The notes below the pieces were generated by a model. That model was not told the origin of the DNA. It did no database searches and saw nothing but the letters and a program-made list of their open reading frames with translations. This document shows positions 43,435-60,298 of a DNA stretch of 64,000 nt, piece after piece. The stretch's first letter is position 1. Each line of letters starts with the position of its first letter. A program made the position numbers and the translations under genes. This DNA is from an uncultured Acidobacteriia bacterium (GTDB taxonomy: Bacteria; Acidobacteriota; Terriglobia; Bryobacterales; Bryobacteraceae). The DNA is taken from the NCBI GenBank assembly GCA_903882645.1, contig CAIRXZ010000238.1, forward strand, positions 1 through 64,000. Direction: 5' to 3'.

Positions 43435-43466
43435 CGGCTCCGCAGTTTTGCGGGGCCGTTTTTTTT
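43435..43466 (+). terminator. Intrinsic terminator 1 upstream of the phage-like cluster
   Basis: CGGCTCCGCA pairs with TGCGGGGCCG (one G-T pair) across a GTTT loop and is followed by eight T residues. Confidence 0.85.
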
Positions 43467-43470
43467 GAGC

Positions 43471-43504
43471 GCGGCCTCGCGGCTCTGCGAGGCCGCTCTT
43501 TTTT
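43471..43504 (+). terminator. Intrinsic terminator 2 upstream of the phage-like cluster
   Basis: GCGGCCTCGC pairs perfectly with GCGAGGCCGC across a GGCTCT loop, followed by TCTTTTTT. An identical GCGCGGCCTCG block lies earlier, at 43392-43402, and could pair with the 3' arm instead, giving a possible alternative fold. The first phage-like gene starts 32 bases later. Confidence 0.85.
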
Positions 43505-43535: not shown

Positions 43536-43796
43536 ATGAAACAGCAAGAAACAGCTCCCGAAGGTTGTGAGGGATGCAAGAAGTGGAAAGAAGCCAAGAA
43601 ACGGGTACGGATCGCGAATCTGCTGGCGAATGCGACCGGCAGGCTGGCGAAAAAGATCGAGGACGACGACTGGAAACCGACGATGGCGGAGTATCTGAAG
43701 CTGCTGCAATTGGAGCAGGAGTACGAGGAGGAGAGTCCGAAGGAGATCAAGGTGACATGGGTGGAACCGACGCCGGCATCCTCGAACGAGGAATAA
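43536..43796 (+). CDS. Small phage-like protein in the terminase small-subunit position
   Basis: 86 residues from ATG 43536 (AGAGGAGCAGGGA upstream). Charged and helical, with a CEGCKKW motif near the N-terminus and a coiled-coil-like C-terminus (EYLKLLQLEQEYEEE). It overlaps the large terminase gene by 40 bases. Position suggests a small terminase subunit, but sequence similarity to that family is not evident to me. Confidence 0.65.
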   Translation: MKQQETAPEGCEGCKKWKEAKKRVRIANLLANATGRLAKKIEDDDWKPTMAEYLKLLQLEQEYEEESPKEIKVTWVEPTPASSNEE

Positions 43797-45061
43797 TATA
43801 CGATCCGCTGCCGTCACAGAAGGCGTTTCACGCCTCGGAAGCGCGGTTCAAGGGCTTCTCGGGGCCAATCGGATGCGGAAAGAGCCAGGCGCTGTGCCAG
43901 GAGGCCATCCGGCTGAGCTACGTGAACGCGGGGCGACCGGGCCTGTTGGGGGCGCCGACCTACCCGATGCTGCGAGACGCGACTCAAGCGACGCTGCTGG
44001 AGATCCTGGACTCCAACGGGATTCCGTACGAACACAACAAGGCCGAGAACACTCTGACCATGAGGGACTCGGGATCGAAGATCCTGTTCCGGCCGGTAGA
44101 GGAGTTCGAGCGGCTGCGCGGCACAAATTTGGCCTGGTTTGGCCTGGACGAGCTGACATATACGCAGGAAGCCGCCTGGCTGCGGCTGGAAGGACGGCTG
44201 CGCGACCCGAAGGCGCAGCACCTCTGCGGATTCGCGGTGTGGACGCCGAAGGGCTATGACTGGGTGTACCGGAGATTCCTGGCAAACGGGCGGAGCGCGT
44301 ACGAGACGATTCTCGCGAAGCCGTACGAGAACCGGCATTTGTTGAAGAAGATCCCGGACTACTACGACCGGCTGAAGGCGAGTTACGACGAGACGTTCTT
44401 TCAGCAGGAAGTTCTGGGGGAATACCTCAGCATGGACGGCGCGCGGGCATATCACGCCTTCAGCCGCGAGGCGCACGTGACGTCCTTGAGCGCCGTTCCC
44501 GATCTGCAGCTGCGATGGGCTCTGGATTTCAACGTGGACCCGATGTCATCGGTGATCGTGCAGATCGTGAAGAGCAAGATCAGGGTGCTCGACGAAATCG
44601 TGATCCGGCACGGAACCACGCAGGAGGCTTGCGAGCAATTCCTCGAGCGGTTTGGAAAGCATCGCCCCGGAGTGGTGGTCTATGGAGACGCCTCGGGCCA
44701 TCAGCAGCACACGACGGGAATGTCGGACTACGACGTGATCCGGGAGTACTTCCAGGTTCACGCGAACGTGCCGGTCCAATACCGCACGCCGCGAGTCAAC
44801 CCCGGCGTGAGGGAGCGGTTGAATCTGATGAACGCCAAGCTGCGGTCGGCGCGGGGCGAGATCGGCATGCAAGTCGATCAGAAGTGCAGGGAGCTGATAC
44901 AAGATTTCGAGCAGGTGTTATTCAAGGCGGACTCCTGGCAGATCGACAAGGACCGGGACCGCATGAGGACGCATTTATCGGATGCGTTGGGGTATCTGAT
45001 CTGGCACGAGTGCAGACCGGAGCGGCCTATCGGCGAACAGCCGAGGCGGCTGCTTGGCTAA
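43757..45061 (+). CDS. Phage terminase large subunit
   Basis: 434 residues from ATG 43757, with AGGAGAT eleven bases upstream. ATPase: Walker A SGPIGCGKSQALC, Walker B LAWFGLDELTYT. Nuclease: LDFNVDPMSSVIVQ, VVYGDASGHQQ and a C-terminal HLSDALGYLIW, the three acidic positions of the RNase H-like fold. This motor cuts and packages DNA into proheads; its intact motifs indicate that DNA packaging is retained. Confidence 0.93.
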   Translation: MGGTDAGILERGIIYDPLPSQKAFHASEARFKGFSGPIGCGKSQALCQEAIRLSYVNAGRPGLLGAPTYPMLRDATQATLLEILDSNGIPYEHNKAENTLTMRDSGSKILFRPVEEFERLRGTNLAWFGLDELTYTQEAAWLRLEGRLRDPKAQHLCGFAVWTPKGYDWVYRRFLANGRSAYETILAKPYENRHLLKKIPDYYDRLKASYDETFFQQEVLGEYLSMDGARAYHAFSREAHVTSLSAVPDLQLRWALDFNVDPMSSVIVQIVKSKIRVLDEIVIRHGTTQEACEQFLERFGKHRPGVVVYGDASGHQQHTTGMSDYDVIREYFQVHANVPVQYRTPRVNPGVRERLNLMNAKLRSARGEIGMQVDQKCRELIQDFEQVLFKADSWQIDKDRDRMRTHLSDALGYLIWHECRPERPIGEQPRRLLG

Positions 45062-45147
45062 GCGGCTTTAGACCCTTTACAGGAAGCGCAGCCCCGAAGT
45101 TCAGGCGGAACGGTTGTAAGTAGAAGTGCGCGGCGGAGGAAGCGGTT

Positions 45148-46542
45148 ATGGAAGGAGTTATGCAGAACATCAATCGGGAACATCCGGAGTACATCGCGCG
45201 CAAGGCGATGTGGAGACAGTACAAGGACCTGTACGCGGGCGGCGAGCGGCTGCGCGCAAACGCCGCGGAATACCTGGTGCGGCGGCACAAGGAGCCGGGC
45301 GAGGTCTACCAGGAGCGCCTGAACCGCGTATTCTACGAGAACTACATCGGATCGATCGTGGACTGGTACGCGGCCACGCTGATCCGCAGGGCGCCGGTAG
45401 TGCTGTTTGAAGGCAACGACGGAGCGGCGAGGAACTACTACAACCTGCTTTCCAGCAACTGCGATTTGAAGGGTACAAGCCTCAGCGAGTTCTTCCGGCA
45501 GCGGTTCGTGCAGGCGTTAGTGTGCGGCTGCAGCTACATCGTGGTGGACTTTCCGCGGGCGAACGGCGCCGCTCTGACCCGCGCGGAAGAAGACGCGACG
45601 GGACGCTCGCGCGCATATCTGATGGAGTACAGTCCCGAGGAAGTCATCAACTGGAACTACGACGACGCCGGGGGGCTGGAGTGGGCGGTTATTCGAACAT
45701 CGTGCCTTCAGCAGTCGAAGGTCACGGACGCGAAATGGGAACGGGAGACGCGCTGGATCTACTACGATCGCGAGAACTATCAGATTTTCCGGAAAGCCGG
45801 GGAGGCAGGGCCGACGGAACTGATCGACGAAGGCCAGCACGGTCTGGCGGCAATGCGGCGGGTCCCGCTGTTTCGGATGCAGGTATCGGAGGGGCTGTGG
45901 CTGGTGAACAAGGCCGCGCTCCTGCAACTGGAACACTTCAACAAGTCCAACGCGCTCTCGTGGGCGCTGACGATGGGGCTGTTCGCGACTCCGGTGATTT
46001 ACTCGGAGCGCGAGTGGAACCAAATTGTGGGCGAGTCCTACTACATCCAACTCGGGCCGCAAGACCGGTTCGGGTGGACGGAGCCGGAAGGCAAGGTTTA
46101 TCAGATCGCGGCGGACAACCTGGTCCGGTTAAAGGACGAAATCTACCGCGTCTGTTACCTGATGAACCAGGCTGGGACGCCGAGCGCGGGCGACCTGCGC
46201 GTTTCCGGCATCAGCAAACAGCGGGACTTCAGCGTGACGCAGGAAGTGCTGCGCGCGTATGGAGATGCCGTGAAGGAAGCGCTGAAGCAAGTTCTGTGGG
46301 CGATCGTGACCGCCCGGCAGGATGGAATCACGATCGATGTTTCCGGGTTAGACGAGTTCGACATCGACGACTTTAGCGGCGAACTGGACGACGCCAAGAA
46401 ACTGCTGGACCTGGGGATCGGCTCGGAGACATTGAAGAAGCAGGTTTTCAAGAACCTGGCATTCAAGTACCTGTGCGACGCGCGGCAGGAAGTCAAGAAC
46501 CGGGTTGCGGAAGAAATCGACGGGATGAGCTACACGAGTTAG
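45148..46542 (+). CDS. Phage portal protein (DUF4055-like)
   Basis: 464 residues; ATG 45148 has GGAGGAA upstream, ATG 45160 is a close alternative. Typical elements are FYENYIGSIVDWYAATLIRR, an extended beta wing (ALVCGCSYIVVDFPRAN), the stem and tunnel region FNKSNALSWALTMGLFATPV and a crown helix near TQEVLRAYGDAVKEALKQVL. The portal forms the dodecameric DNA channel and docks terminase. It follows terminase after 86 bases. Confidence 0.88.
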   Translation: MEGVMQNINREHPEYIARKAMWRQYKDLYAGGERLRANAAEYLVRRHKEPGEVYQERLNRVFYENYIGSIVDWYAATLIRRAPVVLFEGNDGAARNYYNLLSSNCDLKGTSLSEFFRQRFVQALVCGCSYIVVDFPRANGAALTRAEEDATGRSRAYLMEYSPEEVINWNYDDAGGLEWAVIRTSCLQQSKVTDAKWERETRWIYYDRENYQIFRKAGEAGPTELIDEGQHGLAAMRRVPLFRMQVSEGLWLVNKAALLQLEHFNKSNALSWALTMGLFATPVIYSEREWNQIVGESYYIQLGPQDRFGWTEPEGKVYQIAADNLVRLKDEIYRVCYLMNQAGTPSAGDLRVSGISKQRDFSVTQEVLRAYGDAVKEALKQVLWAIVTARQDGITIDVSGLDEFDIDDFSGELDDAKKLLDLGIGSETLKKQVFKNLAFKYLCDARQEVKNRVAEEIDGMSYTS

Positions 46543-46570
46543 AAGACCAAGAACCAAGAACAGGAGGCTT

Positions 46571-47122
46571 ATGGAAGGAATCGACGTTCAGACGATCGTC
46601 AGGCAGGCGATTCAGGAGTTCGTCAGCAGCGAGCAGTCCAAGAGCGAACCGGCTTACAAAGCGGAGCTCGAGGATGAGCGCAAGCGACGGGAGCAACTGG
46701 AGCGCAGGCTGAACGAACTAGTGGCGGAGAACAAACGCAGCCGGCAGATTGCGGAAGAAGCGGAGCGGAGTTCGGCGGTCCGGGCCGCGCTACAACGGCT
46801 GGGAGTGGCCAAAATCGACCTTGCGTTCAAAGCGGTGAAGGACGAGATCGCGCGGACGGAAGACGGGCGGCTGGTGGCTCGCGGGGACAACGGTCAGATG
46901 CCCTTGAAGGACTATCTGACGGTTTTCGTCAACGAGAATCCGGAATTCCTGCCGGCCCGGATCGCGGGAGGGACCGGCATGACGGCGACCCTCAAGGCGC
47001 CTGCGGAGGGCAGAGAGACGGTAAGTATCGAGCAAATCCGGCCAGGCATGAGCGCGGAAGAGATGCGGCGGGTACGAGAGGAAATCGTGCGCGTGGCGTC
47101 GCAGACCCTGCGGGGGCTGTAG
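46571..47122 (+). CDS. Scaffold-like protein preceding the coat gene
   Basis: 183 residues, AGGAGG ribosome site. Residues 25-75 are a strong coiled coil rich in Glu, Arg and Lys (KAELEDERKRREQLERR). The second half (KDYLTVFVNENPEFL) resembles DUF4355/scaffold-type proteins. Placement directly upstream of the coat gene, with no protease gene, supports a scaffolding role. Family assignment is inferred. Confidence 0.7.
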   Translation: MEGIDVQTIVRQAIQEFVSSEQSKSEPAYKAELEDERKRREQLERRLNELVAENKRSRQIAEEAERSSAVRAALQRLGVAKIDLAFKAVKDEIARTEDGRLVARGDNGQMPLKDYLTVFVNENPEFLPARIAGGTGMTATLKAPAEGRETVSIEQIRPGMSAEEMRRVREEIVRVASQTLRGL

Positions 47123-47179
47123 AGAAGCAACACGGGCGGGCCAGGCGCCTGTCCAACAAACAAAAGTCAAGGAGAAAGA

Positions 47180-48091
47180 ATGGCAGCAATAACCTCAACA
47201 AACGTCGCGAACGCGATCGTGAAGCTGGTGGCGGCGGACGCTTTGCCGGTGCTGGTGGGGAACCTCGTGATGGGGAACCTCGTAAATCGCGACTACGAAC
47301 CGGTGCTGGCGCATGCCGGCGATACGGTCAACGTGCCGATTCCGCCGACCATGGTGGCGAACAACATCCTGGAAGGCGGGACGGTGCAAACGCAAAACCC
47401 GAGTCTGGGGAACGCGCAGATCGTGCTCAACACGCACGCGGAAGCGACGTTCCAGATCCCGGACGTGACCAAAGTGCTGGCCGTGCCGGACCTGCTGAAG
47501 ATGTACATGCAGCCGTCGGTCGCGGCGATCGCGCAGAAGATCGAGACCGATCTGCTGAACCTGTACGCCGGCTACACGGCCAACACCCCGGTGGGCACGC
47601 CGGGCACGCCGATCACGGAAGCCGTGATCGACGCCGCGGAAACAGCCCTGTTCCTGGCGAAGATCCCTCCCAGCGAGCAGAAGTTCATCGTGGTGGACGC
47701 CGCCACGTATTCGGCCTGGCGGCAGATTCCGCGGTTCAGCGAGTTCCAGACCGCTGGCGACGCCGGCCTGCGCGCGATCATCGACGGCACAGTGGGGAAG
47801 GTCAAGGACTTCTTCGTGTTCCGCTCGCAGTTCGTGCAGAAGACGGGCGCCAGCCCGGTGACGACCCACAACCTGGCGTTCACGAAGGACGCCATGGGCC
47901 TGGTGATCCGGCGCCTGCCGCAGCCTCTGCCCGGGACCGGCGCCATCGCGGAGTACGCCGAACTGGGCAACTTCGGAATGCGCGTGGTGATGAGTTACCA
48001 GCCGAACACGCTGGCGCAGCAGTTCACGGTCGACGTGCTGTATGGCTGCGGCGTGCTGCGGAACGCCTCGGGCGTGCAGGTGAACACGTAG
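47180..48091 (+). CDS. Major capsid protein, P22 coat-like HK97 fold
   Basis: 303 residues, strong site AAGGAGAAAG. It starts MAAITSTNVANAIVKLVAAD and contains VNRDYEPVLAHAGDTVNVPIPP, an E-loop-like strand (GTVQTQNPSLGNAQIVLNTH) and LAFTKDAMGLVIRRLPQP, features of the P22 coat protein family (phage P22 gp5-like). No prohead protease gene exists in the cluster, which agrees with P22-type assembly using a separate scaffold. Confidence 0.88.
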   Translation: MAAITSTNVANAIVKLVAADALPVLVGNLVMGNLVNRDYEPVLAHAGDTVNVPIPPTMVANNILEGGTVQTQNPSLGNAQIVLNTHAEATFQIPDVTKVLAVPDLLKMYMQPSVAAIAQKIETDLLNLYAGYTANTPVGTPGTPITEAVIDAAETALFLAKIPPSEQKFIVVDAATYSAWRQIPRFSEFQTAGDAGLRAIIDGTVGKVKDFFVFRSQFVQKTGASPVTTHNLAFTKDAMGLVIRRLPQPLPGTGAIAEYAELGNFGMRVVMSYQPNTLAQQFTVDVLYGCGVLRNASGVQVNT

Positions 48092-48160
48092 AGGGCGCAT
48101 TGCAATCCGGCAGGCCGGGGCAAACAGGGCAGCCGGCCTGCCCTATCAAAGGAGAACAAG

Positions 48161-48493
48161 ATGGATCTGACAATCTATTACCAGAAGATTAGAGCTGTGG
48201 AAGCGACGATCGCGGACGCTTATCCCGTGGTAGTGAGTATGGCGACGGCCGATGGCGGCAAGGAGGGAGTCGCGACGGAGGTCACGCGCGGAATCGCCGC
48301 GAAGATGATCGTTGAAGGGGAGGCGCGCATGGCAGCGAGCGAGGAGGCGGAAGCGTTCCACGCATCGCAGGCTGAAGCGAAGCGGATCGCCGACCAGATG
48401 GCCCAGGCGTCGAAGGTGCAGTTGTCGGTGCTGACGACGGCCGAGCTCAACAAATTGAGGGAGGTCGCGGACTCCCTGAAGGACACGGCGTAA
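48161..48493 (+). CDS. Small helical phage-like protein
   Basis: 110 residues, AAAGGAG ribosome site. Ala/Glu-rich and almost fully helical by composition. No family recognised. Its place between coat and connector genes suggests a head decoration or head-completion role. Confidence 0.65.
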   Translation: MDLTIYYQKIRAVEATIADAYPVVVSMATADGGKEGVATEVTRGIAAKMIVEGEARMAASEEAEAFHASQAEAKRIADQMAQASKVQLSVLTTAELNKLREVADSLKDTA

Positions 48494-48497
48494 CGAC

Positions 48498-49271
48498 ATG
48501 GCTCTGTTCACGGACGGTCCCGTATCGACTATCGACGATCTTTCGGCCCAGGACTCCCAACTTGCGGACGTGGCCAACGCCGAAAACATCGATGTCACGC
48601 GGAAGCTGGCTCTGGCGCAGGAACAAGTCGCGTTGGAGCTCGGCGCGCTGCTGACTAGAATGAGCTTTGCGGACCAACCGTTTTGGCTGTCCCCGCAGCC
48701 GAATGTCAGCAACGTGGTGGCGACGCCGGCGCTCAGGCTCTGGCATACCTATCGCGCCCTGGAGATGGTTTACGCCGACGCATACAACAGCCAGTTAAAC
48801 GACCGGTATGCGGGCAAGCGCGACCAGTTCGATTCCATGGCGAGCTGGGCCTACGAGAAACTGGTTCAGATTGGAGTCGGAGTGGTCTTCGATCCCGTCG
48901 CCAGAGCCGTCACGCCAAACGTGACGGCCGCGCCCGGGGCGCCCGCTCCTCTTCCATCGGCAACCTACTACGCGACCGTGGCGTGGACCAACAAGGCCGG
49001 CGAGGAGGGCGCGAGCGCCTCGCCGGCCACCATCACGACGGCCGGCGGCACACTGCTGGTTCAGCCCGCGAATCCACCGAAAAACGCGGCGGGGTGGAAC
49101 GTGTACGTTGGCGGCGGCCCCGATTCAATGTTCCGACAGAACGGAACGCCAATCGGAACCGCACAGACCTGGACCCAGCCTGGGTCCCTGGCGACAACCG
49201 GGCAGTTAGCCGGCCAGGGGCAAACTCCCAACTACCTAAAACCGGTTCCAAGAGTAATTCAGAGGGGCTAA
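48498..49271 (+). CDS. Phage-like head-tail connector candidate with a C-terminal Ig-like module
   Basis: 257 residues. The N-terminal 140 are helical (TRKLALAQEQVALELGALLT, LWHTYRALEMVYADAYNSQL), as in head-tail connectors. After a Pro/Ala linker there is a beta module of about 85 residues (ATYYATVAWTNKAGEEGASA, NAAGWNVYVGGGP) similar in pattern to one in the tail hub at 53629. Its TAA shares a base with the next ATG. Confidence 0.65.
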   Translation: MALFTDGPVSTIDDLSAQDSQLADVANAENIDVTRKLALAQEQVALELGALLTRMSFADQPFWLSPQPNVSNVVATPALRLWHTYRALEMVYADAYNSQLNDRYAGKRDQFDSMASWAYEKLVQIGVGVVFDPVARAVTPNVTAAPGAPAPLPSATYYATVAWTNKAGEEGASASPATITTAGGTLLVQPANPPKNAAGWNVYVGGGPDSMFRQNGTPIGTAQTWTQPGSLATTGQLAGQGQTPNYLKPVPRVIQRG

Positions 49272-49771
49272 TGACGGCAAAACTAGGAAGCGCCATCAGC
49301 GACAAGATAATCCAGCTAATTGCCGCGCCAGCGGGCGTCAATTCCAGCCTGGCAGCGCTTTCGGCGGCGGACAGCGCGCCGGCGGCGGCGCTGGACATGG
49401 CCCGGGTTTGCGCACAAAACGTCGCCGCGGATTTGATGGAGCGCAGCGGCGCCGTGAACTATCCGGCGGTCAACGTGTATTGCGAAAAGATCGTGAACGC
49501 TCTGACCGAGAAGTCCAGGAGCTTCTCCGGCTCGGCCCGGATGACCGTCGAGGTGCGGCACTCGCAAGACCGGCTCGATGGACTTCAGGACACCCTGGAG
49601 CTCTATGTGGACGCGGTGACGCAGACGCTGAGCGCGAGCCGCGGCGATTGGGGCGACGGCATGTTTTACGGCGGCGGATACGAGGTATCGTTCGCCGCCG
49701 TAAAGCATGGCGGCAGGAATTTCATCCAGACGGCGAAGGTCGCCTTCGAGATAGGAGTGAGCAGAAATTAA
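49271..49771 (+). CDS. Phage-like neck or tail-terminator candidate
   Basis: 166 residues, with the start overlapping the previous stop (TAATG). Alternating helix and strand pattern (NVYCEKIVNALTEKSRSFSG, DTLELYVDAVTQTLSASRGD, a final strand FIQTAKVAFEIGV). Size and position between connector and tail tube fit a tail-completion protein. No family recognised with confidence. Confidence 0.6.
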   Translation: MTAKLGSAISDKIIQLIAAPAGVNSSLAALSAADSAPAAALDMARVCAQNVAADLMERSGAVNYPAVNVYCEKIVNALTEKSRSFSGSARMTVEVRHSQDRLDGLQDTLELYVDAVTQTLSASRGDWGDGMFYGGGYEVSFAAVKHGGRNFIQTAKVAFEIGVSRN

Positions 49772-49772
49772 C

Positions 49773-50996
49773 ATGTCCTCGTATATTTCGTCTAACGCAA
49801 ACCGATTCTACACGGCATTGGAAGACGCTTTCGGCAACGTGGAGGCGATCACCTCGGCGAACCGTATTCCTGCCTTGAAGCTGGCGGTCCAGCAGCAACT
49901 CGAAGTTACAACGCGAAAGGACAAGACAGGCAGCCGGACGTTTCCGGGTCTGCCGGTTGGCGGCCGGCGCCGGACCAGCTTCGAACTGCGCACTTACCTG
50001 ACAAGCTGGCAACAGCCGACGGCGGCGCCGTCCAACGCCCCCTCGCCGAATGCGCCCTCGCCCAACTCTCCGGGGGGTCCGGGATACGGACCGCTCTTTC
50101 AGGCGGCGCTGGGCGGGACGCCGCTCGGGTTCGCGGGCGGGACGGTGGCTTCCAGTACCACGGCCGGGAGGCTGGCCTTCCAGGCGCCGCATGGTCTCGC
50201 GGCGGGGCAGGCGGTCTCGTGCGGGGGCGAAATCCGGTTCGCGGCGGCGATCGTCGATGCGCAAACGGTACAGTTGAACGCGCCGTTCGCGGTTCAACCT
50301 GCCGCCGGCGGCGCCGTGGCGGCGACGGTCACCTACGTTCCCGCAACGGAACTGCCCAGCGCGAGCATTTTCGACTACTGGACGCCGGCGACAGCGGCGC
50401 AGCGTCTGCTCTGCGGGGCGGCCGTCGACAAGATGGACATCCTGCTCAACGGGGATTACCACGAGTTTCACTTCAGCGGGCTGGCGCAGGACTTGCTGGA
50501 TAACAGCAGCTTCAGCAGCGGGGCCGGGGCATTGCAGAGCTTCCCTTCGGAACCGGCGCTCGACGCGTTCGACTACTCGATCGTGCCGGGACAGATGGGC
50601 CAGGCGTGGCTGGGCGCGTCGCCCTCGCAGTTCTTCACGATCACAAGCGCGACGGTGACGCTTAAGAACGGCCTGGCTGCGCGGTCGAGGGAATTCGGGA
50701 CCAACCTGCCCAGGGCTATCGCGCCCGGCCAGCGCAGCGTGACCGCGGCCTTTGAACTCTACAGCCTGGACGACGGCGCCACAAGCGCGCTCTACCAAGC
50801 GGCCCGGCAACAATCGCCCATCAGCGTGATGTTCCAGTTGGGCGAAGCCCAGGGACAGGTGATGGGCGTCAACCTGAACAGCGTGATCCCTGAAGTGCCG
50901 GAGTTCAACGACGGCGAAAACCGGTTGCAGTGGAAGTTCCGGGGATCGCGGGCTCAGGGAACGGTGGACGACGAGATCACGGTAGCGTTCGGGTGA
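49773..50996 (+). CDS. Phage-like major tail tube protein
   Basis: 407 residues. Two beta-rich halves separated by a Pro/Ser insertion (APSNAPSPNAPSPNSP) and a beta module (VSCGGEIRFAAAIVDAQTVQ). The second half shows tube-like features: MDILLNGDYHEFHFSGLAQD, then LNSVIPEVPEFNDGENRLQW and a C-terminal strand. It precedes the chaperone genes, as tube genes do in siphophages. There is no sheath gene, so the tail would be non-contractile. Confidence 0.75.
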   Translation: MSSYISSNANRFYTALEDAFGNVEAITSANRIPALKLAVQQQLEVTTRKDKTGSRTFPGLPVGGRRRTSFELRTYLTSWQQPTAAPSNAPSPNAPSPNSPGGPGYGPLFQAALGGTPLGFAGGTVASSTTAGRLAFQAPHGLAAGQAVSCGGEIRFAAAIVDAQTVQLNAPFAVQPAAGGAVAATVTYVPATELPSASIFDYWTPATAAQRLLCGAAVDKMDILLNGDYHEFHFSGLAQDLLDNSSFSSGAGALQSFPSEPALDAFDYSIVPGQMGQAWLGASPSQFFTITSATVTLKNGLAARSREFGTNLPRAIAPGQRSVTAAFELYSLDDGATSALYQAARQQSPISVMFQLGEAQGQVMGVNLNSVIPEVPEFNDGENRLQWKFRGSRAQGTVDDEITVAFG

Positions 50997-51077
50997 AGAA
51001 GAAGCTGTCGGCTATCAGCCATCGGCTTTCAGCCAGTACCAAGACGGCGTGATTTCTCTTCCGGCGGTCGGAAGCAC

Positions 51078-51117
51078 GTGGCGCGAGGGCGAGGCATGCC
51101 TCGCCCCTATAAGAGCG
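51078..51117 (-). repeat. Copy 2 of the GAGGC-centred palindromic repeat, inside the phage-like cluster
   Basis: Reverse complement of the element at 4466-4506 with about three differences. It lies in the 143-base gap between tail tube and tail chaperone genes. The bases before it (50997-51060) also look like intergenic repeat debris (GGCTATCAGCCATCGGCTTT). Confidence 0.8.
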
Positions 51118-51139
51118 CTGAATGCTCATTGAGGTTCTC

Positions 51140-51505
51140 ATGACTTACGAAAGCGTGAAGGTAGTGGAATCGGCGATTGCGCCGGGGGTACGTTACACGG
51201 TGGCGAAGATGTCGTTCGCGCGGCGCGTGGAACTGATGCGCACGGTGCGCGAATTGGCCCGGCGGATGGAATTTCTGGAGGCGGGCGCCAGCGCCGGGGA
51301 CAAGATGGATGCGGCGCTGCTCCAGGCCGAGATCGACCGGCTCTACTTGACGTGGGGCTTGCGAGAGGTATCGGGGCTCGAGGTAGACGGATCCGGCGCG
51401 ACCGCGGATTCGCTCGCGGAGGCGGGGCCGGAGGATCTCTTTAGAGAAGCGCTGGCCGCGGTGCGGGCGGAGATGGGGTTGAGCGAGGCAGAACGAAAAA
51501 ACTGA
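51140..51505 (+). CDS. Tail assembly chaperone, short (G-like) form
   Basis: 121 residues from ATG 51140 (GAGG seven bases upstream); ATG 51122 is possible but lacks a site. Helical protein (MSFARRVELMRTVRELARRM, EIDRLYLTWGLREVSG) ending SEAERKN at a TGA. The last two codons and stop form AAA AAC TGA after CGA, a slippery sequence. Position between tail tube and tape measure matches lambda gene G. Confidence 0.75.
   Translation: MTYESVKVVESAIAPGVRYTVAKMSFARRVELMRTVRELARRMEFLEAGASAGDKMDAALLQAEIDRLYLTWGLREVSGLEVDGSGATADSLAEAGPEDLFREALAAVRAEMGLSEAERKN
51496..51502 (+). promoter_or_regulatory. Programmed -1 ribosomal frameshift site (A AAA AAC)
   Basis: The heptamer is in register with the chaperone frame (cgA AAA AAC) and directly followed by the UGA stop. 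A slip of one base back continues CTG ATT GTC into a stop-free frame of 117 codons. Sites of this type drive expression of lambda G-T-like tail chaperones. Confidence 0.85.
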
Positions 51506-51855
51506 TTGTCGCCTTCCATTTTCAGTTCTCCAACCAGGCCGGTTGGAAGTGCGACGCCTGCCGGAGATCCGGTCTGGAGCACAAGCGGCGGTGCGGATGG
51601 CTGGCGCGGGGCGAGGAGACGAGCGCGCCGCTGGTGTGGGCACGGAAGGGCGTCTGGCTCAGCACGTGTCCAAAGTCCTGCATCACAGTGGAGAGCCAGG
51701 CGCTGGTGGAGGAGTTCTTCGTCCGGCGGCGCCTTGGAGGGACGAGCTTTTCGGATCTGAGCGCGCGTCAAGTAGAGGCGTTCGCGATCCTGGAAAGCGA
51801 GCTCGCTACGGAGATAAACGATGGCCAGAACCACGCAAGAGGAGTTGCTCGATAG
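51502..51855 (+). CDS. Tail assembly chaperone, T-like extension read by -1 frameshift
   Basis: 117 codons with no ATG near the beginning (first in-frame GTG at 51634), so expression by frameshift from the preceding frame is most likely, giving a 238-residue fusion. The sequence is protein-like, with CDAC, RRCGW and CPKSC near residues 17-60 suggesting a small metal-binding knuckle, and a helical end (LSARQVEAFAILESELATEI). It overlaps the next gene by 35 bases. Confidence 0.75.
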   Translation: MIVAFHFQFSNQAGWKCDACRRSGLEHKRRCGWLARGEETSAPLVWARKGVWLSTCPKSCITVESQALVEEFFVRRRLGGTSFSDLSARQVEAFAILESELATEINDGQNHARGVAR

Positions 51856-52498
51856 TTTCACGGCGATCGCAGGGCGCGAAGCGCCGGACCCGGGAGCCGC
51901 CCTGGCGGCGACGCGGGACCTGGCGACCGCCCTGGAAGACGCCGCGCCGCAGGCTGGCAGCGCAGGCGAGGCCGTGGCATCCCCGGTGGCGCAGGCCCTG
52001 ATTGAGAGCACTATTGCATCGTTAACGGGGAACACTGGATCGGCGGCCAGTTCGAGCTCGGCCGGCAGCGGCGGCGGAGTCACGGCGTTTTCGGTGGCGA
52101 AGACTGTTCTGGAGAGCGGCTTCGGTCTGATTCCGCTGATCGGAGGGCTGATCGGGCTATTCAGCGGCGGGGATTCCAGCGCTCCGCCGACGCTGGTCAA
52201 GTACGCCATGCCGCCGGCGCTCGACTTCCAGGCCGCCGAGACGGGAGTAGGATTGACCAGCGCCGGTTACGACCAGATGGGAGCGCCAAGGGCGCTTGGC
52301 GGCGGGACCGAGAGGCAATCGTCAACCCCAACGGGAGACTACGCCGGCGGACCGGGCGAGTCGCCGGCGCAGATTGCGGCGAGCACGCAGGCAATGGACG
52401 CGCGATGGTTCATGGACCATAGCGCGGACATCGCGGCCGCGGTACGGAACGCGATGCTCAATCTCAACTCGATAAATGACGTGGTAAACGACCTATAG
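51821..52498 (+). CDS. Putative very short tape-measure protein
   Basis: 225 residues. Ala-rich helical N-terminus, Gly/Ser linker, one hydrophobic stretch (GFGLIPLIGGLIGLFSGG) and a final helix (HSADIAAAVRNAMLNLN). It sits exactly where a tape measure gene belongs, after the frameshifted chaperone and before distal tail genes. A scale of about 0.15 nm per residue, as for lambda, would give a tail of only some 30-35 nm. The family itself is not recognised; function is inferred from order. Confidence 0.6.
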   Translation: MARTTQEELLDSFTAIAGREAPDPGAALAATRDLATALEDAAPQAGSAGEAVASPVAQALIESTIASLTGNTGSAASSSSAGSGGGVTAFSVAKTVLESGFGLIPLIGGLIGLFSGGDSSAPPTLVKYAMPPALDFQAAETGVGLTSAGYDQMGAPRALGGGTERQSSTPTGDYAGGPGESPAQIAASTQAMDARWFMDHSADIAAAVRNAMLNLNSINDVVNDL

Positions 52499-52500
52499 CC

Positions 52501-52860
52501 ATGGCAACCTTCCCAACATTGAAGACCAGCGCCGTAATTCAGTATCCGGCGACGCGGCAGGCGCGCTATCAGAACCAGGCCCTGCGCTTTTTGGACGGGA
52601 CGGAACAGCGCTACCGCGATTGCGCCGGTCCGCTGCTGCGATGGGAAATACCGCTCAGCCAATTGGATGAAGGCGAGGTGGCGGCGATCGAGGAGTTCTT
52701 CGCCGCGAACCAAGGGGCGTTTGGAAGCTTTGCATTCACCGATCCCTGGGACGGAACGGTGCACCCAAACTGCAGCCTGGACACGGACGAATTGCAGACG
52801 ACGACCACAGCGGAAATGGACTGCGCCACAGTGCTGACCGTGGTCGAGAACCGAGGGTAA
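52501..52860 (+). CDS. DUF2460-like distal tail protein 1
   Basis: 119 residues. FPTLKTSAVIQYPATRQARY, then LDEGEVAAIEEFFAANQGAF followed by GSFAFTDPWDG. This is the pattern of DUF2460/TIGR02217 proteins (the distal tail protein of the Rhodobacter gene transfer agent belongs there). Starts three bases after the previous stop. Confidence 0.7.
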   Translation: MATFPTLKTSAVIQYPATRQARYQNQALRFLDGTEQRYRDCAGPLLRWEIPLSQLDEGEVAAIEEFFAANQGAFGSFAFTDPWDGTVHPNCSLDTDELQTTTTAEMDCATVLTVVENRG

Positions 52861-52862
52861 AC

Positions 52863-53645
52863 ATGCTGGTGTATCCACAACTCGGAACGGGAGCGCTGAG
52901 TCAGTTTCCGATTCGAAAGCAGCGGCGCGCGCGCACGGTAGTGAACGCCGCGTTGGATGGGAGTTCGATCAAGCTGGCGGACGCCGCGGGGGAGACCACG
53001 GAGTGGGCGCTGAGCTACGCGGGCCTGTCAGACGCGGAAATCGGCGCGCTGGAGCAGTTCTTCGCGTCCGCGGAAGGGACGCTGAACGGATTCACGTTCC
53101 TCGATCCGGCGGCGAACCTGCTGGGCTGGAGCGGGGCGCCGGGCGAGGCGGTTTGGAAGCGGGATCCCCAGCTTTCGCTCACGGGCGGAATACAGGACCC
53201 GGCCGGCGGATCGGCGGCGTGGCGTCTGACGAATGCCGGCGCGGCGCCGCAGGCGATCTCGCAGACTCTGGCCGCGCCGGGGGGATACGTGTACTGCCTG
53301 AGCGCTTACGTGCGCGCGCCGGCGGCTTCCACGGCCACGATGCTGCTGGGAAGCAGCCGGGGAAGCCGCGCGATTCAAACGCAGTGGAGCCGGATCGTGT
53401 TTTCGGCGGCCGGAGACGCAGCGACGGCCGAAGTTCTTTTCGGACTCGAAATCCCGGCCGGCGGCGAGGTGGACGTATTCGGGATACAAGCCGAGCCGCA
53501 AGCGGGAGCGTCCGCATACAAAGTGAGCACATCCGGCGGAGTCTACGAAGGCGCGCGGCTCCGGGACGACGAACTCGCGGTCACGGCCACGGGCGTGAAC
53601 CGCCATTCCTGCACGGTGAATATCACACATGTCAACCATCTTTGA
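52863..53645 (+). CDS. DUF2460-like distal tail protein 2 with a C-terminal jelly-roll module
   Basis: 260 residues. Residues 1-85 repeat the pattern of the preceding protein (LSDAEIGALEQFFASAEGTL then NGFTFLDPAANLL). Residues 95-235 are a beta-sandwich of carbohydrate-binding-module type (LTNAGAAPQAISQTLAAPGG, YCLSAYVRAPAASTATMLLG, IVFSAAGDAATAEVLFGLEI). The first part is a paralogue of gene 52501; the second may bind surface glycans. Its end overlaps the hub gene by 17 bases. Confidence 0.72.
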   Translation: MLVYPQLGTGALSQFPIRKQRRARTVVNAALDGSSIKLADAAGETTEWALSYAGLSDAEIGALEQFFASAEGTLNGFTFLDPAANLLGWSGAPGEAVWKRDPQLSLTGGIQDPAGGSAAWRLTNAGAAPQAISQTLAAPGGYVYCLSAYVRAPAASTATMLLGSSRGSRAIQTQWSRIVFSAAGDAATAEVLFGLEIPAGGEVDVFGIQAEPQAGASAYKVSTSGGVYEGARLRDDELAVTATGVNRHSCTVNITHVNHL

Positions 53646-56600
53646 TCTGACGCAGCAGACGGTCACGGATACGCCGCTTCTGCTATTCGATTGCGCGCTG
53701 CCGGACGGGCGGACGGAAAGGTGGAGCACGCACGGAGTAACGGTGAATGGCGGCGCTTACGCGGCGCGGGTCCTGCAACACAGCGCGTTCGAGATGCAGA
53801 CCGCCTCGGCGCAAGGCGTGGACGGCATCTCGCAGATTTCCATCGTGCTGGCGAACGCCGATTCGCATTTTTCGGAAATCGAGCGCTCAACCGGCTGGAA
53901 GGGCGCACGGTTGACGGTGAGCTTTCTGTTTTACGACCTGCGGAATCGGGTTCCGGCCAGCGATATCGCAGTGCTGTTTCAGGGAATCTGCAATCCGCCG
54001 GACGAGATTCTGGAAGCGACGTTCCGGATGACGGCGACCAACCGGATGAGCTTGCAGCGGGTACTGCTCCCGCAAGTGCGAATCCAGCGAACATGCCCGT
54101 GGGATTTCCCCGCGACCGCGGACCAGCGCGCGGAGGCGATCGACGGAGGAAGCAACGGGAAATACTCGCGGTACTACCGCTGCGGGTACTCGGCGGGGAT
54201 TGCGGGCGGCGCGGGAAACCTCAACGGAAGCGAGCCGTACACAAGCTGCGGATACACGCGGAGCGATTGCCAGGCGCGGGGCATGTTCGCGAACTTCGGC
54301 GGCATCGAATTCGTGCCGCCGGCCATCATGGTGCGGCCCTCGGGGGGGAACTGGCAGACGTCGGCGGTGAGCGTGAACGCGGCGCTGTACAACGATTTTG
54401 TGCCCATGGTCTACGGGACGGCGTGGTACGCGCCGCCGATCGTGTTCGCGCGCAACGACGGCAACCTGACGAGGATGGAAGTCCTGTTGGGGATCGGCGA
54501 AATGCAGAATGTGCTGGCCGTTCTGGTCAACGACGTGGAGATTCCGCAGGGCGTGGCGGGAACTCACATGACGGGAACCGGGTGGTACAACATCCCGACC
54601 CTCGGAACACGCACCGGGGCGTGCGACGGCAACTTCCTGGACGGAAACGGGCAGCCGGCGGGCGACCCTTACGGAAGCATGGCGTATCTCTCGGTGGTGG
54701 TTCCAAACCAATTGAACAACGGGACGACGCTTCCCAGGGTCATGGTGCTGGCGCAGGGGCTGAAGACTCCAATCTACGACGCGAATGGCGCGCAGACGGG
54801 CGAGCAATTCAGCAACAACCCGGCCTGGATTCTGCTGGACATGCTGCGGCGAGTCGGGTGGAGCGCGGCCGAGATCGACATTCCGAGCTTCGCGGCCGCG
54901 GCGGCATACTGCGACGAGGGGATCGACGCGCTGGATATCTACGGCAATGCCATCTCGCTCGCCAGGTTCCAGTGCAACCTGGCGCTCAAGACCAGGAAGA
55001 GCGCCGGCGACGTGACCCGCGGGGTCCGGATCGCCGCGCGACTGTTGCTGACCTACGGCAGCAACGGGCTCTTGCAGCTTCGCGTGGAGAACGCAATCGC
55101 CAACGAGCAGCCCGCGAAACCCCAGTGGTCGAACAGCGCCGAATCTCTCAACGGCGGTTGGCCGGGTTACGAATTCGGAGACGGCAGCAACGGTTTCACC
55201 GGAATCCTGCGGCTTCCCAGTGGAGCGCCGAGCGTGCGCGTGTATTCCCGCAGCATGGCGGACACCCCGAACAGTCTCAGCGTGGAGTTCCAGGACGCGC
55301 TGAACGATTACCAGCAGGACGGCTTCTCGGTGGTCGATCCGGACGATGTGGCGCTGTGCGGGCAGGAGATTTCGGCGGGTTTGAACGCGATCGGGCTTCC
55401 GAATTACGACCAGGCGGGCCGGATCCTAAAGCTGAACCTGGACAAATCGGTGCGCGGCAATGCGTACATCGAGTTCCAGACCAGCGTGCGATCGTTCGGC
55501 GTTCGCCCAGGCGACCTGATCGCCGTCACCTACCTCAAAGAAGGATTCATTCGCCAGCCGTTCCGGATTTTGAAGATCGCTCCGGGACTCAATCACCGCG
55601 TGACGACGATTACAGCGCAGATTCACGACGACGCGTGGTACGCCGACAGCAATGGGCAGGCCACTTCGGCGGCGGGAGGGCGGCGGCAGAGCGATGCCGG
55701 CGTGGGCGTGCCGCGTCCGCTGCTGGGCAGCGTTGTGGACAATAACGGAGACGTGCAATTCGGGGTAATGGAGGCCTGCGACACCAGCAGCGATGGCTCG
55801 GTCGAAACAAGCGTCACCGTGAGCTACATTCCCGCGCCCAGTTGCGCGGCGGCTGGCCCGGACATCCCCCTTGTGAGCTTGGCGGCGGAAGTGGCGGCGG
55901 GCGGAACCCTCGCAAGCGGCCAGGTTCTGTACTACGCGGTTTCGGCGCGGGACTCGGCCGGGAACGAGAGCGCGCCGTCTTTTCTGGTGACGGCCGCGAT
56001 CGCCAACAGTGGAAGCGCGGTTACGCTGTCCGGGCTGAGTTTCTCGCCGAATACGGCGGCTTTCCACGTCTATCGCGGCAACGCGCCGGGGAGACTGTTC
56101 CGGATCGCGAGCAACCAGCAAACCGCGGGCCAGTTCACCGATTCCGGTCTTCCGCCGCAGATTATCGCGCCGCCCGACCCCAACTTCGACCATGCGAATT
56201 TCTATTGGCGCATGGAACTCCTGCCGGAGACGGCGGCGACGCTGCGCTCGGTCAACACGGCGGGCAACGCCTCGCTTAACGTGAAGGTCAACGCATTCGC
56301 CGGGATGACGGCGCGGATCACGCGCGGGCGCGGGGCCGGACAGGAACGCACGATCGCATCGAATACGCACACCACGCTGACCGTATCGCCGGCCTGGGCG
56401 GTGGAACCGGATGCCACCAGCTACTTAGTGGTGGCGGAGACCGGCTGGAAACCCGGCGCGACGACGACGAGCGCGACGGCGCAGTTCACGATTGCGAACC
56501 GGTCCGGGGAGGTGGCGCACATCACCGGGCGCGCCGCAAACGTCAACAATGTGGAGTGCGATCCGGAGATCTCGACCGTGACGCGATGGCAGATTGGCGG

Positions 56601-57513
56601 AGCGGGCGTGGCGGACGCGGCCGTTCCACCGCAGCCGCTTTTCGGGCTGGGGCCCGGCGCTCAGGGCGGGACGGTGGAGTTGAGCGGCGTTTCATTCCCG
56701 GACCTGGCGAACACGCGCTCGATATCCTCGGCTACGCTGACGATGTATTACTGGAACGAACTGGCAGGCACGCCGGGGATCACGCTCGCCAGCGCGGCGG
56801 GAGCGCCGGACACCATGCTCAACCTTAGCCAGCCGGGACCGGGACTGCCGGGGAGCTATCTCCAAATCGACGGCGAAGTAATCCGCGTGGAAGCGTCGCT
56901 CAACGGCGGCGCCACTTACCGGGTGACGCGAGGATGCCACGGGAGCCAGGCGGCGCCGCACACGGCGGGGCAGGCGCCGGTGTACCATCTTGCGAGCAAG
57001 AGCGCGATCGCGGCGTTCCCACCCGAGTTCTTCGGGAGCCCGTACAGCGGGAGCTGGACTTACCCTGTGATCCTGCCGGACGTGCGGGTGGTAAGCGCCG
57101 AGCTATTCGCGACCAACAACAAAGGAAACAGCCCGACTGGCAGCATCGCTCTGACCCACACCACCGACTTGGGACTGCGCACGACCTCCGGCGGGCAGTA
57201 TACGATTCAAGTGGACGGCTTTCTGGCGGTGGACCAATACGCGGCTCCGGCCCTGGTCATGGAGGCCTCGCACGCAGTTCGCGAGATTTACGCCGTGTTG
57301 GGCAAAGCGGCCGACGCGCAGGTGCGACTGCAGTTGAACGTCAACGGGAGTCCGTACTGTTCACTGGCCTTCAATCCCTCGAATTCGGTCTCCAACAGCG
57401 TGCCGGGCAATACGGTGGCTCCGCTGGCGGCCGGCTCGCAGGTCACTCTATCGATTCTCACGGTGGGGCAGGCGTATCCGGGCGCCGACTTGACCGTGCT
57501 GATCCGGCTCTGA
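53629..57513 (+). CDS. Large tail hub protein with gpL/DUF2163-like N-terminus
   Basis: 1294 residues. Residues 1-150 are hub-like beta domain (FEMQTASAQGVDGISQISIV). Four cysteines follow at 156, 185, 207 and 214 (RTCPW, YRCGY, SCGYTRSDC) just before NFGGIEF, the arrangement of the iron-sulfur hub domain of lambda gpL and of GTA DUF2163 proteins. Residues 250-680 resemble tail attachment (J-like) modules (YLSVVVPNQLNNGT, FGVRPGDLIAVTYLKEGFIR). Ig-like and beta modules make up the remainder. It fuses functions that lambda divides among several genes. Confidence 0.78.
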   Translation: MSTIFDLTQQTVTDTPLLLFDCALPDGRTERWSTHGVTVNGGAYAARVLQHSAFEMQTASAQGVDGISQISIVLANADSHFSEIERSTGWKGARLTVSFLFYDLRNRVPASDIAVLFQGICNPPDEILEATFRMTATNRMSLQRVLLPQVRIQRTCPWDFPATADQRAEAIDGGSNGKYSRYYRCGYSAGIAGGAGNLNGSEPYTSCGYTRSDCQARGMFANFGGIEFVPPAIMVRPSGGNWQTSAVSVNAALYNDFVPMVYGTAWYAPPIVFARNDGNLTRMEVLLGIGEMQNVLAVLVNDVEIPQGVAGTHMTGTGWYNIPTLGTRTGACDGNFLDGNGQPAGDPYGSMAYLSVVVPNQLNNGTTLPRVMVLAQGLKTPIYDANGAQTGEQFSNNPAWILLDMLRRVGWSAAEIDIPSFAAAAAYCDEGIDALDIYGNAISLARFQCNLALKTRKSAGDVTRGVRIAARLLLTYGSNGLLQLRVENAIANEQPAKPQWSNSAESLNGGWPGYEFGDGSNGFTGILRLPSGAPSVRVYSRSMADTPNSLSVEFQDALNDYQQDGFSVVDPDDVALCGQEISAGLNAIGLPNYDQAGRILKLNLDKSVRGNAYIEFQTSVRSFGVRPGDLIAVTYLKEGFIRQPFRILKIAPGLNHRVTTITAQIHDDAWYADSNGQATSAAGGRRQSDAGVGVPRPLLGSVVDNNGDVQFGVMEACDTSSDGSVETSVTVSYIPAPSCAAAGPDIPLVSLAAEVAAGGTLASGQVLYYAVSARDSAGNESAPSFLVTAAIANSGSAVTLSGLSFSPNTAAFHVYRGNAPGRLFRIASNQQTAGQFTDSGLPPQIIAPPDPNFDHANFYWRMELLPETAATLRSVNTAGNASLNVKVNAFAGMTARITRGRGAGQERTIASNTHTTLTVSPAWAVEPDATSYLVVAETGWKPGATTTSATAQFTIANRSGEVAHITGRAANVNNVECDPEISTVTRWQIGGAGVADAAVPPQPLFGLGPGAQGGTVELSGVSFPDLANTRSISSATLTMYYWNELAGTPGITLASAAGAPDTMLNLSQPGPGLPGSYLQIDGEVIRVEASLNGGATYRVTRGCHGSQAAPHTAGQAPVYHLASKSAIAAFPPEFFGSPYSGSWTYPVILPDVRVVSAELFATNNKGNSPTGSIALTHTTDLGLRTTSGGQYTIQVDGFLAVDQYAAPALVMEASHAVREIYAVLGKAADAQVRLQLNVNGSPYCSLAFNPSNSVSNSVPGNTVAPLAAGSQVTLSILTVGQAYPGADLTVLIRL

Positions 57514-57520
57514 ATCCGAA

Positions 57521-60298
57521 ATGGCGGAACAACTCACCAAGCTGCGGCCCGACCGGGACCTGCAATGCTACTTCCAGCAACCAAGCGCAGCCGCGGCCTT
57601 GAGCGAAACCAGCGCAACCGGGTTCACGGTGTCCGGGTCCTTTCGCCAGCAGTTCGATTGGGCGGTAGTCGAGTGGGCCCGCGACGACGTCTTCGAGCAT
57701 CCGGCGCTGCGCTGCCTGCCGGACGGCGACCTCAGCGGGCTGCATCTTTCCTACGACGAGCAACGCCAGAACTGCATGGCGATGGACTCCACGCTGTGGC
57801 CGACGGTAGACTGGCCATACCTCCGGATCTGGGCGACAGGCTCGGACGGCGTCGAACGGGAGTACAAGGTTCCGCTCAAGACCTACGCGACACCCGCGGC
57901 GGGGAGTTTTGCGCCGGCGCAGGCGGTGTTCGAACTCACGGGCGCGGTGAGCGCCTCCGATAACGTGGAGCTGGCCTGGGCGGCGGCGGACGCGGTAGAC
58001 CCATCGAGCCAGCACGCCACCCACCAGATGTACTACAACGACACGCTGGAAGGCGTGGCTGCGCTCTTGGCGAATGCGATCGCTGCGAACACCGCCGCGA
58101 CGGGCATGACGGCAACGGCCGCGGGCGCGCAGATCACGCTGCAGTCCCAGGGCGCGGCGGGGGCCAACGGAAACCGGGTCGGCGTCTACGGCAACGTGAG
58201 CGGCGCACAGACCGAGATCTGGCAGCCGGCGTGGCAGACCATGAGCGGTGGGACTTCGCCGGCGAAGTGGCACGTCGATCTGGACTTCAGTAATCTCCAG
58301 GGTTACCAGGGGCCGGATTTCACTACGCTTGTCCACGTGCCGGCGAGCGCCGTCCGCCGGATGCGGTGGACGTGGGCGCCGGACCAAAAGCAGGGCGCCT
58401 TCGCGCGGACCGAATTCCAGGTGACTGTTTCGAACTGGACGGTCGCCGGAACGAATCTCGGGCAACAAGTCGCCGGGCCGGGAAGCTGGCGCGCCGAAGA
58501 CGGGTCCGACCTGGTCGTCTGGTCGGGCGCCTGGGACAATTGCGCCATCGGCAACTACTCCGGCGGCTCGATTCGATCCACGGAGACGCCCGGATCGTCC
58601 GTCTCGTACACCTACGCGGCAACCGGCAGCCACACGCTGTACCTGGGGACGCGCATGTTCCGTAACGACACGGCGGCCGGCGCGCAGATCTCCATCACGA
58701 TCGACGGCGCGGCGCGCACCGAGAGCCTGGCGTTCGCCGGCGCCGAGGATTTCCTGGTCCGGATCAAGGTGGCAGACCTCAACGCGGGGCAGCACGCCGT
58801 GACGGCGGCGCACGCCGGGAGCGGAGTCTTCTATTTCGACTTCTTCGAGATCGCATTCCCAGCGGCCGAACTGCCCTCGTTCGCTCAAACCCCGGGCACG
58901 ACGCTGGCAACCGACTGGGATACCTATCATTCCATCTGCCTTGCTCCGGAGCGCACTGCGTGGCTGATCGACAAGCTCGGTTTCGGTGGACGGGCGAACC
59001 ACTATGCCGGCGCGATGTGGTTCTACGAACTGACGCGGCCGGGGCACCACTACGCTTCGGCGACCGTGACGTTCGCGGGCGCGCCGGATTTCGGCCTGTA
59101 TACAACTGTCAACGTCGGCGGAGCGGGGTTCCGGCACATGAGTTTCATTGCGGACACGGCGGCGAGCGTGGCCAAGGCGCTGGAGCTCTCGATCAACGCC
59201 GGGGCCACCGCGGTTTGGGCAAGCGCGGCAGGGAGCGCGCTGACCATCTGGTCGCGCACGATGGGGGCGGCCGGAAACGGGATGACGATCGCCGCGGACA
59301 CGGGCGGCAGCCAGCACTTGACGGCGCAGGCGAGCGGGCCGCTGGCCGGGGGCGTGGACGGCGACCTCACGACGATGCCGTGGGCGCAGGGCTGGCGCAC
59401 CGACCTGACATCGTCCCCACGCATCAACCGGGCGGCGCGAGACTGGCACGCCAGCTACTTCGCCGCGCTCAAAGGTTACGGCATCGACGCCGCGGCGGCG
59501 TTTTCCATGGAGCTTCAGCACGGCGATCCGCAACCGGCGACGGGGATTGCGCAGCGGTATCCCGACGGCAGTCCCGCGCTGCTCAATACGCCGGCCCTTC
59601 AGACGAACTTCTCGCCGGTTAGCACCGCGTTCTGGCAGCAGGTTTACCGCGATATGGCGGACATCATGAGCGCGGCCGGCCTAGTCCCGTATCTGCAGTT
59701 CGGGGAAGTCGAGTGGTGGTTCAACGCGGCGTCCTCGGGCATGCCGTTCTATGACGCCTACACCGAGAGCGCGTTTCAGACGGCCAAGGGACGGCCGCTG
59801 GGGATCATCCCGAGCCAAAATGCGTCCCCGAGCGACTTCCCCGACGAATGCGCTTTCCTGCCAACCCTGATTGGCGAATTCACAAATGCGGTCATGGCTT
59901 TCGTGCGGACGACGTATCCGAACGCCCGCTTCGAATCGCTCTACCCCGTGGACGCCAACGACACGCCGTTGAACAAGATCGTCAATTATCCGGCGGCGTA
60001 CTGGACCCCCGCGACTCTGAACTGCCTGAAAACCGAGAACTTCATCTACACCGGCGGCCGCGATTTGGACAAAGCGCGCGAATCGATCGAGTTGCCGGCG
60101 CAGCTCGGGTTCCCGCAATCGCAGAGCAGCCACCTGGTGGGAATCGGCGATTGCACCACGCCTTGGCTGAAAGAAAGGAGACTGGCGCTGGAGAATGGGG
60201 TAGAGTCGGTGGTGCTGTTCGCGCTCGATCAGTTCTGTCTGATTGGGTACCCGGCGCCGCTGGCCAGGAGCTCGCGGCGGTCGGGGAAGATGGGGTAG
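57521..60298 (+). CDS. Tail-tip protein with repeated beta modules and a TIM-barrel-like C-terminus
   Basis: 925 residues, starting eight bases after the hub gene. A module of about 60 residues occurs twice, near 173-230 (LEGVAALLANAIAANTAATG, GAAGANGNRV) and near 540-600 (SVAKALELSINAGATAVWAS, MGAAGNGMTI). The C-terminal 300 residues (SMELQHGDPQPATGIAQRYP, YLQFGEVEWWFN) look like a glycosidase-type TIM barrel, although I cannot place catalytic residues. Probably a receptor-binding or cell-wall-acting tip. It is the last gene of the cluster. Confidence 0.65.
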   Translation: MAEQLTKLRPDRDLQCYFQQPSAAAALSETSATGFTVSGSFRQQFDWAVVEWARDDVFEHPALRCLPDGDLSGLHLSYDEQRQNCMAMDSTLWPTVDWPYLRIWATGSDGVEREYKVPLKTYATPAAGSFAPAQAVFELTGAVSASDNVELAWAAADAVDPSSQHATHQMYYNDTLEGVAALLANAIAANTAATGMTATAAGAQITLQSQGAAGANGNRVGVYGNVSGAQTEIWQPAWQTMSGGTSPAKWHVDLDFSNLQGYQGPDFTTLVHVPASAVRRMRWTWAPDQKQGAFARTEFQVTVSNWTVAGTNLGQQVAGPGSWRAEDGSDLVVWSGAWDNCAIGNYSGGSIRSTETPGSSVSYTYAATGSHTLYLGTRMFRNDTAAGAQISITIDGAARTESLAFAGAEDFLVRIKVADLNAGQHAVTAAHAGSGVFYFDFFEIAFPAAELPSFAQTPGTTLATDWDTYHSICLAPERTAWLIDKLGFGGRANHYAGAMWFYELTRPGHHYASATVTFAGAPDFGLYTTVNVGGAGFRHMSFIADTAASVAKALELSINAGATAVWASAAGSALTIWSRTMGAAGNGMTIAADTGGSQHLTAQASGPLAGGVDGDLTTMPWAQGWRTDLTSSPRINRAARDWHASYFAALKGYGIDAAAAFSMELQHGDPQPATGIAQRYPDGSPALLNTPALQTNFSPVSTAFWQQVYRDMADIMSAAGLVPYLQFGEVEWWFNAASSGMPFYDAYTESAFQTAKGRPLGIIPSQNASPSDFPDECAFLPTLIGEFTNAVMAFVRTTYPNARFESLYPVDANDTPLNKIVNYPAAYWTPATLNCLKTENFIYTGGRDLDKARESIELPAQLGFPQSQSSHLVGIGDCTTPWLKERRLALENGVESVVLFALDQFCLIGYPAPLARSSRRSGKMG

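Follow-up and report, generated by a model that had tools for sequence, protein, structure and literature searches.

A likely gene transfer agent with a P22-type coat in the Bryobacteraceae (Acidobacteriota)

Introduction

To our knowledge, nearly all gene transfer agents (GTAs) whose gene clusters are known belong to Alphaproteobacteria, and few are from elsewhere. The tail hub of the GTA of Rhodobacter capsulatus (RcGTA) carries a cysteine cluster. Its tape measure protein has a length of about 216 aa (PMC7296036). The small terminase (TerS) of RcGTA, gp1, is an essential protein that starts with a coiled coil and shows weak binding to DNA; it has no DNA-binding domain, which was proposed as the hallmark of GTA-type TerS (PMC6854486). 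The FpGTA of Faecalibacterium was recognised by a TerS without an obvious DNA-binding domain and packages host fragments of ~9 kb (PMC12946183). PBSX of Bacillus subtilis is domesticated and packages host DNA, like the particle proposed here, but it kills without transfer, unlike a GTA.

No GTA of Acidobacteriota was found in the open literature; subscription papers and preprints lay largely outside our coverage. Copies of the element analyzed here have been in the literature since 2025 under the name of “group (i)” proviruses, which are specific for Bryobacterales (PMC11924767). The gene set was confirmed in two of them, UViG 639633060 of Ca. Solibacter usitatus (our L097) and the also listed KBS 96. 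That publication reads the group as proviruses and not as a GTA, and its text, as far as searched, contains neither gene transfer nor family-wide prevalence, host congruence or the short TerS.

Results and discussion

Gene content of the locus

The window, i.e., the whole stretch of 64,000 nucleotides analyzed here, belongs to a Bryobacteraceae MAG (Acidobacteriota) of 5.27 Mb in 366 contigs, whose relatives carry the names Bryobacterales, Bryobacteraceae and Solibacter. It contains an intact head-packaging-tail locus of 16.8 kb (43536-60298, + strand), all genes of which lie on one strand. On the left it is preceded by a tRNA-Ser, asnB and a membrane glycosyltransferase gene, and on the right it is followed by a convergent GH57 gene. 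The only tRNA of the window (39125-39214) is located 4.3 kb from the locus. The upstream glycosyltransferase (41335-43338) was read with 667 aa and then overlaps asnB, so its true start lies further in. The features of the locus are:

43434..43496, +, two tandem terminator-like hairpins (insulator or attenuator), directly upstream of the first gene
43536..43796, +, small terminase (TerS) candidate of GTA type with 86 aa; two helices and no HTH at the N-terminus (tblastn, AF2, comparison with phage TerS)
43757..45061, +, large terminase (TerL) of 434 aa with intact motifs for ATPase and nuclease (phrog_2, E=1.9e-33)
45148..46542, +, portal protein (phrog_145, E=6.6e-47)
46571..47122, +, scaffold protein (phrog_1879, E=4e-4)
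47180..48091, +, P22-type major coat, 303 aa (PF11651, 1.4e-15; phrog_283, 6e-39)
48161..48493, +, conserved head gene, 110 aa, no assigned role (synteny in nearly all loci)
48498..49271, +, head-tail connector, Hc3-like (phrog_8040, E=0.008, and position)
49271..49771, +, tail completion/terminator candidate, 166 aa (conserved ORF at that position)
49773..50996, +, tail tube protein (phrog_290, E=2e-9, and position)
51122..51505, +, tail assembly chaperone, short form (position, conservation)
51496..51502, +, slippery heptamer AAAAAAC for a -1 frameshift; the fusion extends to 51855
51821..52498, +, short tape measure candidate, 225 aa (flanked by the chaperone and the distal tail genes)
52501..52860, +, DUF2460 distal tail protein a (PF09343, 1.3e-10)
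52863..53645, +, DUF2460-like tail protein b (PF09343, 8.7e-5, below the Pfam cut-off)
53629..57513, +, baseplate hub, lambda J-like, four invariant Cys (phrog_31, 1.4e-23)
57521..60298, +, tail tip protein with TIM barrel (PF23845, 1.3e-18)

A previous sequence-only reading of this DNA had named terminase, portal, scaffold, P22-like coat and tail genes on one strand, including two DUF2460-like genes, and all of them are present, intact and on the + strand. The terminase is intact with its motifs, as had been stated, and over 24 genomes the conservation of Walker A, the DE box and the nuclease Asp residues is 95% or higher. Its start at 43574, however, had to be revised. The long ORF read as terminase begins within a gene that uses another frame. 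This first gene is the TerS candidate, and the most likely start of TerL is therefore 43757. This candidate carries the motif KEIKVTWVEP near its C-terminal end and is conserved in related loci (85 tblastn hits). The coat is only 27.5% identical to the nearest coat among isolated phages.

The proposed frameshift of the chaperone is borne out by the heptamer A AAA AAC, which in 22 of 24 genomes is found in frame close to the ORF end. Similarly, the four-Cys cluster seen in the hub (C156, C185, C207 and C214) is present in 23 of 23 genomes. The identity of the tape measure candidate rests on position and size only; its length across the loci (22 genera) is 171-255 aa. The tip gene is strongly diverged, and in four genera (G015, G028, G031, G036; L400-L403) it is absent from the locus while a homologue of 31-36% identity is encoded elsewhere. 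These unlinked homologues stand alone, far from the locus and surrounded by ordinary genes.

Integrase, repressor, replication and lysis genes were not recognised in 43536-60298 or in the other loci examined, and no direct repeats of the att type were found flanking the locus. This had been claimed before. Outside the locus, no integrase is among the matches listed within ~40 kb of any of the 24 loci. In addition, no regulatory genes for the locus were identified, and neither a prohead protease gene nor a separate cell-wall peptidase gene was found in it. Of the 5 nearest relatives, 4 have hairpins similar to the tandem terminators upstream of the locus, as does one other genus. A function as family-wide control element was rejected, since they are confined to this clade and the one additional genus.

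Comparison with known particles

Like RcGTA and the alphaproteobacterial GTAs, the locus is a one-strand particle cluster of similar size with a DUF2460 tail gene. As in RcGTA, the hub has a Cys cluster, the tape measure is short, TerS has no N-terminal DNA-binding domain, inheritance is vertical and replication genes are missing. In contrast, the RcGTA coat is of HK97 type with a protease, whereas the coat of the locus is of P22 type. Further differences from RcGTA are the lambda J-like hub, the TIM-barrel tip gene, the lack of a detectable separate cell-wall peptidase, the different phylum, the absence of a known regulator and an activity that is only inferred. Because of the P22-type coat and the missing protease gene, membership of the alphaproteobacterial GTA family was rejected. 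The separate origin postulated by the sequence-only reading is supported by the coat type and by a separate TerL clade, in a tree which does not include RcGTA.

FpGTA is, like the locus, nearly ubiquitous in its group, has a TerS without an obvious DNA-binding domain (PMC12946183) and consists of an operon of terminase, portal, scaffold and coat with tail or lysis genes partly unlinked. Unlike the locus, it is podovirus-like and belongs to a Gram-positive host, and its particles and packaged DNA were shown experimentally. A GTA domesticated independently of the alphaproteobacterial one is the best explanation for the locus, and there is good reason to assume a new GTA-type element.

Prevalence and inheritance

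The coat gene was identified in 147 of 170 Bryobacteraceae genomes (each at least 90% complete), covering 62 of the 64 genera and usually as a single copy; it is absent from 23 of the genomes. Outside the family, only three carriers (G044, G057, G594) were found in a sample of 399 genomes of the class, and 396 genomes drawn across Acidobacteriota gave no further close match. Core gene order and lengths are maintained over ~25 genera. In the 24 genomes compared, nearly all core genes have constant order and length, with a coat of 303-304 aa in all of them and a hub of 1185-1312 aa.

The locus is inherited family-wide and mostly vertically with its host. A tree of the concatenated locus has 7 of 21 internal splits in common with the RpoB+RpoC tree, whereas label permutations reached 2 at most, and the patristic distances of both trees correlate with r=0.78. 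Clades found in both trees include the six-genome clade of the window, G026+G034, G007+G016 and G035+G320. A few deep splits conflict with the host tree (G005/G011, G010/G015), and these involve the longest branches. Hence, some transfer or long-branch error remains. The TerLs of the loci form one clade, separate from the phage TerLs (SH-aLRT 99), which points to one domestication.

The comparison across related genomes, which had been suggested as a check, gave a vertical signal and family-wide presence. The asnB/glycosyltransferase flank is common to the nearest relatives only, so the site is not conserved throughout the family. Other genera have different flanks, which are alike within subclades, as expected of old vertical inheritance combined with rearrangement. 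A relative with an empty site would have spoken against a host element. One genus does have a member without the locus: G027 (contig C14, L398/L399) lacks the locus and the right flank, while its congener G320 carries the locus. The left operon is conserved between both up to the locus edge (~50-79% protein identity) and the right side differs, which indicates loss or rearrangement. A clean empty site of the att type was therefore rejected.

Selection on the locus genes

The genes of the locus are kept by purifying selection. In independent pairs with dS of ~0.3, dN/dS is 0.092 for the scaffold, 0.096 for the coat, 0.119 for the portal, 0.138 for TerS, 0.167 for TerL and 0.171 for the hub; the tape measure candidate reaches 0.56. 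The coat and terminase values had been called for by the sequence-only reading, and both agree with its inference of a domesticated particle of the host, which is also supported by the family-wide presence and the vertical signal; DNA content and transfer are inferred. In-frame stops were found in only ~10 HSPs among ~1,600 copies of phage genes. Purifying selection is also seen in active phages. The argument for a GTA rests on purifying selection occurring together with vertical descent where phage functions are missing.

The distribution of constraint bears on the main alternative, a PBSX-like killer particle, which would package host DNA or nothing, bind to relatives, kill or damage them without gene transfer and be kept by selection as a bacteriocin. 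The same gene inventory would suffice for such a particle, and the strong divergence of the tip gene and its unlinked position in four genera would fit it. However, constraint is strongest on scaffold, coat and portal, which would not be needed for pure tail killing, and no immunity gene was seen adjoining the locus. We consider a killer particle unlikely, and the GTA remains the preferred interpretation.

Related phages in the same family

Real prophages with related head genes occur in Bryobacteraceae. G035 (L210/L211, C144) carries the locus and, separately, a prophage region with a coat of 73% identity and a TerS of 203 aa, which also encodes DNA methylases, ParB, a sigma factor and a HerA-like ATPase. 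Prophages in G576 (L409-L411, C1) and G517 (L412/L413, C157) have the same gene order as the locus, with DNA polymerase, helicase or clamp genes inside or adjoining. Their candidate tape measures have 1145 aa (G576) and 944 aa (G517); a PHROG tape-measure match was obtained for that of G517 alone. In G576, two such prophage coats are located ~17 kb apart in opposite orientation. The prophage coats share 59-74% identity and a similar length with the coat of the locus. Judged by this similarity, the head may hold the 17-kb locus itself.

Compared with these phage relatives, both the tape measure and TerS of the locus are short. TerS has 67-118 aa in the loci and 199-216 aa in the phages; viral contigs with a TerS of 201-216 aa include some of 26-49 kb, whereas those with a short TerS reach ~20 kb or less. 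L366, a short viral contig considered as a phage, was rejected because its small TerS-like ORF identifies it as the same element as the locus. For the phage TerS, AlphaFold (AF2) predicts a helical domain at the N-terminus, a long coil and a C-terminal part, and for the TerS of the locus two helices only. The models were built on reference-based alignments (A3/A4) with a mean pLDDT of ~69. By length and predicted structure, the TerS of the locus thus appears to lack the N-terminal sequence-specific DNA-binding domain. A profile comparison of short and phage TerS gave no significant homology (hhalign, E=0.09; one row of the input alignment had a wrong start), so a “truncation” is inferred from position, size and the predicted structures. 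Foldseek with the phage TerS model gave no informative match.

These relatives, together with the published reading (PMC11924767), would speak for an ordinary or decaying provirus. Against it, replication, integration and lysis genes were not recognised in the loci examined, att sites were not found and no integrase is among the matches listed within ~40 kb. Moreover, the locus shows no decay, occurs as one copy in most genomes and in 62 of 64 genera, and has a mostly host-like phylogeny, which makes a provirus very improbable. A phage satellite or capsid-forming island using a helper phage for replication and spread would explain structural genes without replication genes, and some genomes (G035, G576) also contain related prophages. 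Satellites, however, are mobile elements with an integrase and regulators, neither of which was found in the locus. As the locus also encodes a complete tail and descends vertically, this explanation is hardly tenable.

Proposed function and implications

Taken as a GTA, the locus is likely to have been domesticated once in Bryobacteraceae, from a lineage of P22-coat siphophages that still infects the family, with particles, packaging and transfer being inferred. It also seems plausible on balance, with more reserve, that an active GTA arose from such a siphophage in a single event, at about the time when the family originated or earlier, by an RcGTA-like solution of a TerS without DNA-reading domain and a tape measure of ~220 aa. 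Bryobacteraceae cells would then probably make particles by which pieces of their DNA pass from cell to cell.

In the proposed mechanism, the operon would be expressed by the cell in some unknown state, and portal, scaffold and coat would form the head. TerS would retain the oligomerisation helices and the TerL-binding tail without the sequence-reading domain. TerL may then start on arbitrary host DNA and fill the heads with pieces of the chromosome. This DNA would be delivered to relatives by a short non-contractile tail, its length set by the 225-aa tape measure, from which ~35-50 nm would be predicted, and its tip formed by the four-Cys hub and the TIM-barrel protein. Particle production, random packaging, release by genes located elsewhere, delivery and recombination are all inferred in the absence of expression, particle or DNA data. 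The question can be tested, since cultured carriers exist (KBS 96, Paludibaculum fermentans, Ca. Solibacter usitatus) and the true phage relatives provide a control within the family.

If confirmed, this would be the first GTA of Acidobacteriota and the first of P22-coat siphovirus type, and it may be a driving force of gene exchange in a family that is dominant in soil. It would also mean that the domestication of phages into DNA exporters recurs by the same steps. Many “proviruses” of Bryobacterales from IMG/VR and peat may be host genes, which affects soil virus counts; pieces of the locus in IMG/VR may inflate these counts for soil Bryobacterales. Hundreds of short IMG/VR viral contigs (L093-L172; up to ~18 kb among those examined) are pieces of the host locus.

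A different, conserved module was observed in genus g91 of another acidobacterial family (G291, L242/L243; G315, L244/L245). In both genomes it is located beside a trmFO-like gene, and it consists of TerL, portal, scaffold, P22-type coat, connector and chitosanase-like and holin-like genes, without tail genes. The possibility that these distant coats represent a second copy of the Bryobacteraceae locus was rejected, as only head genes are present. The g91 coat is 24-26% identical to that of the window, and at least 13 species of the genus have it.
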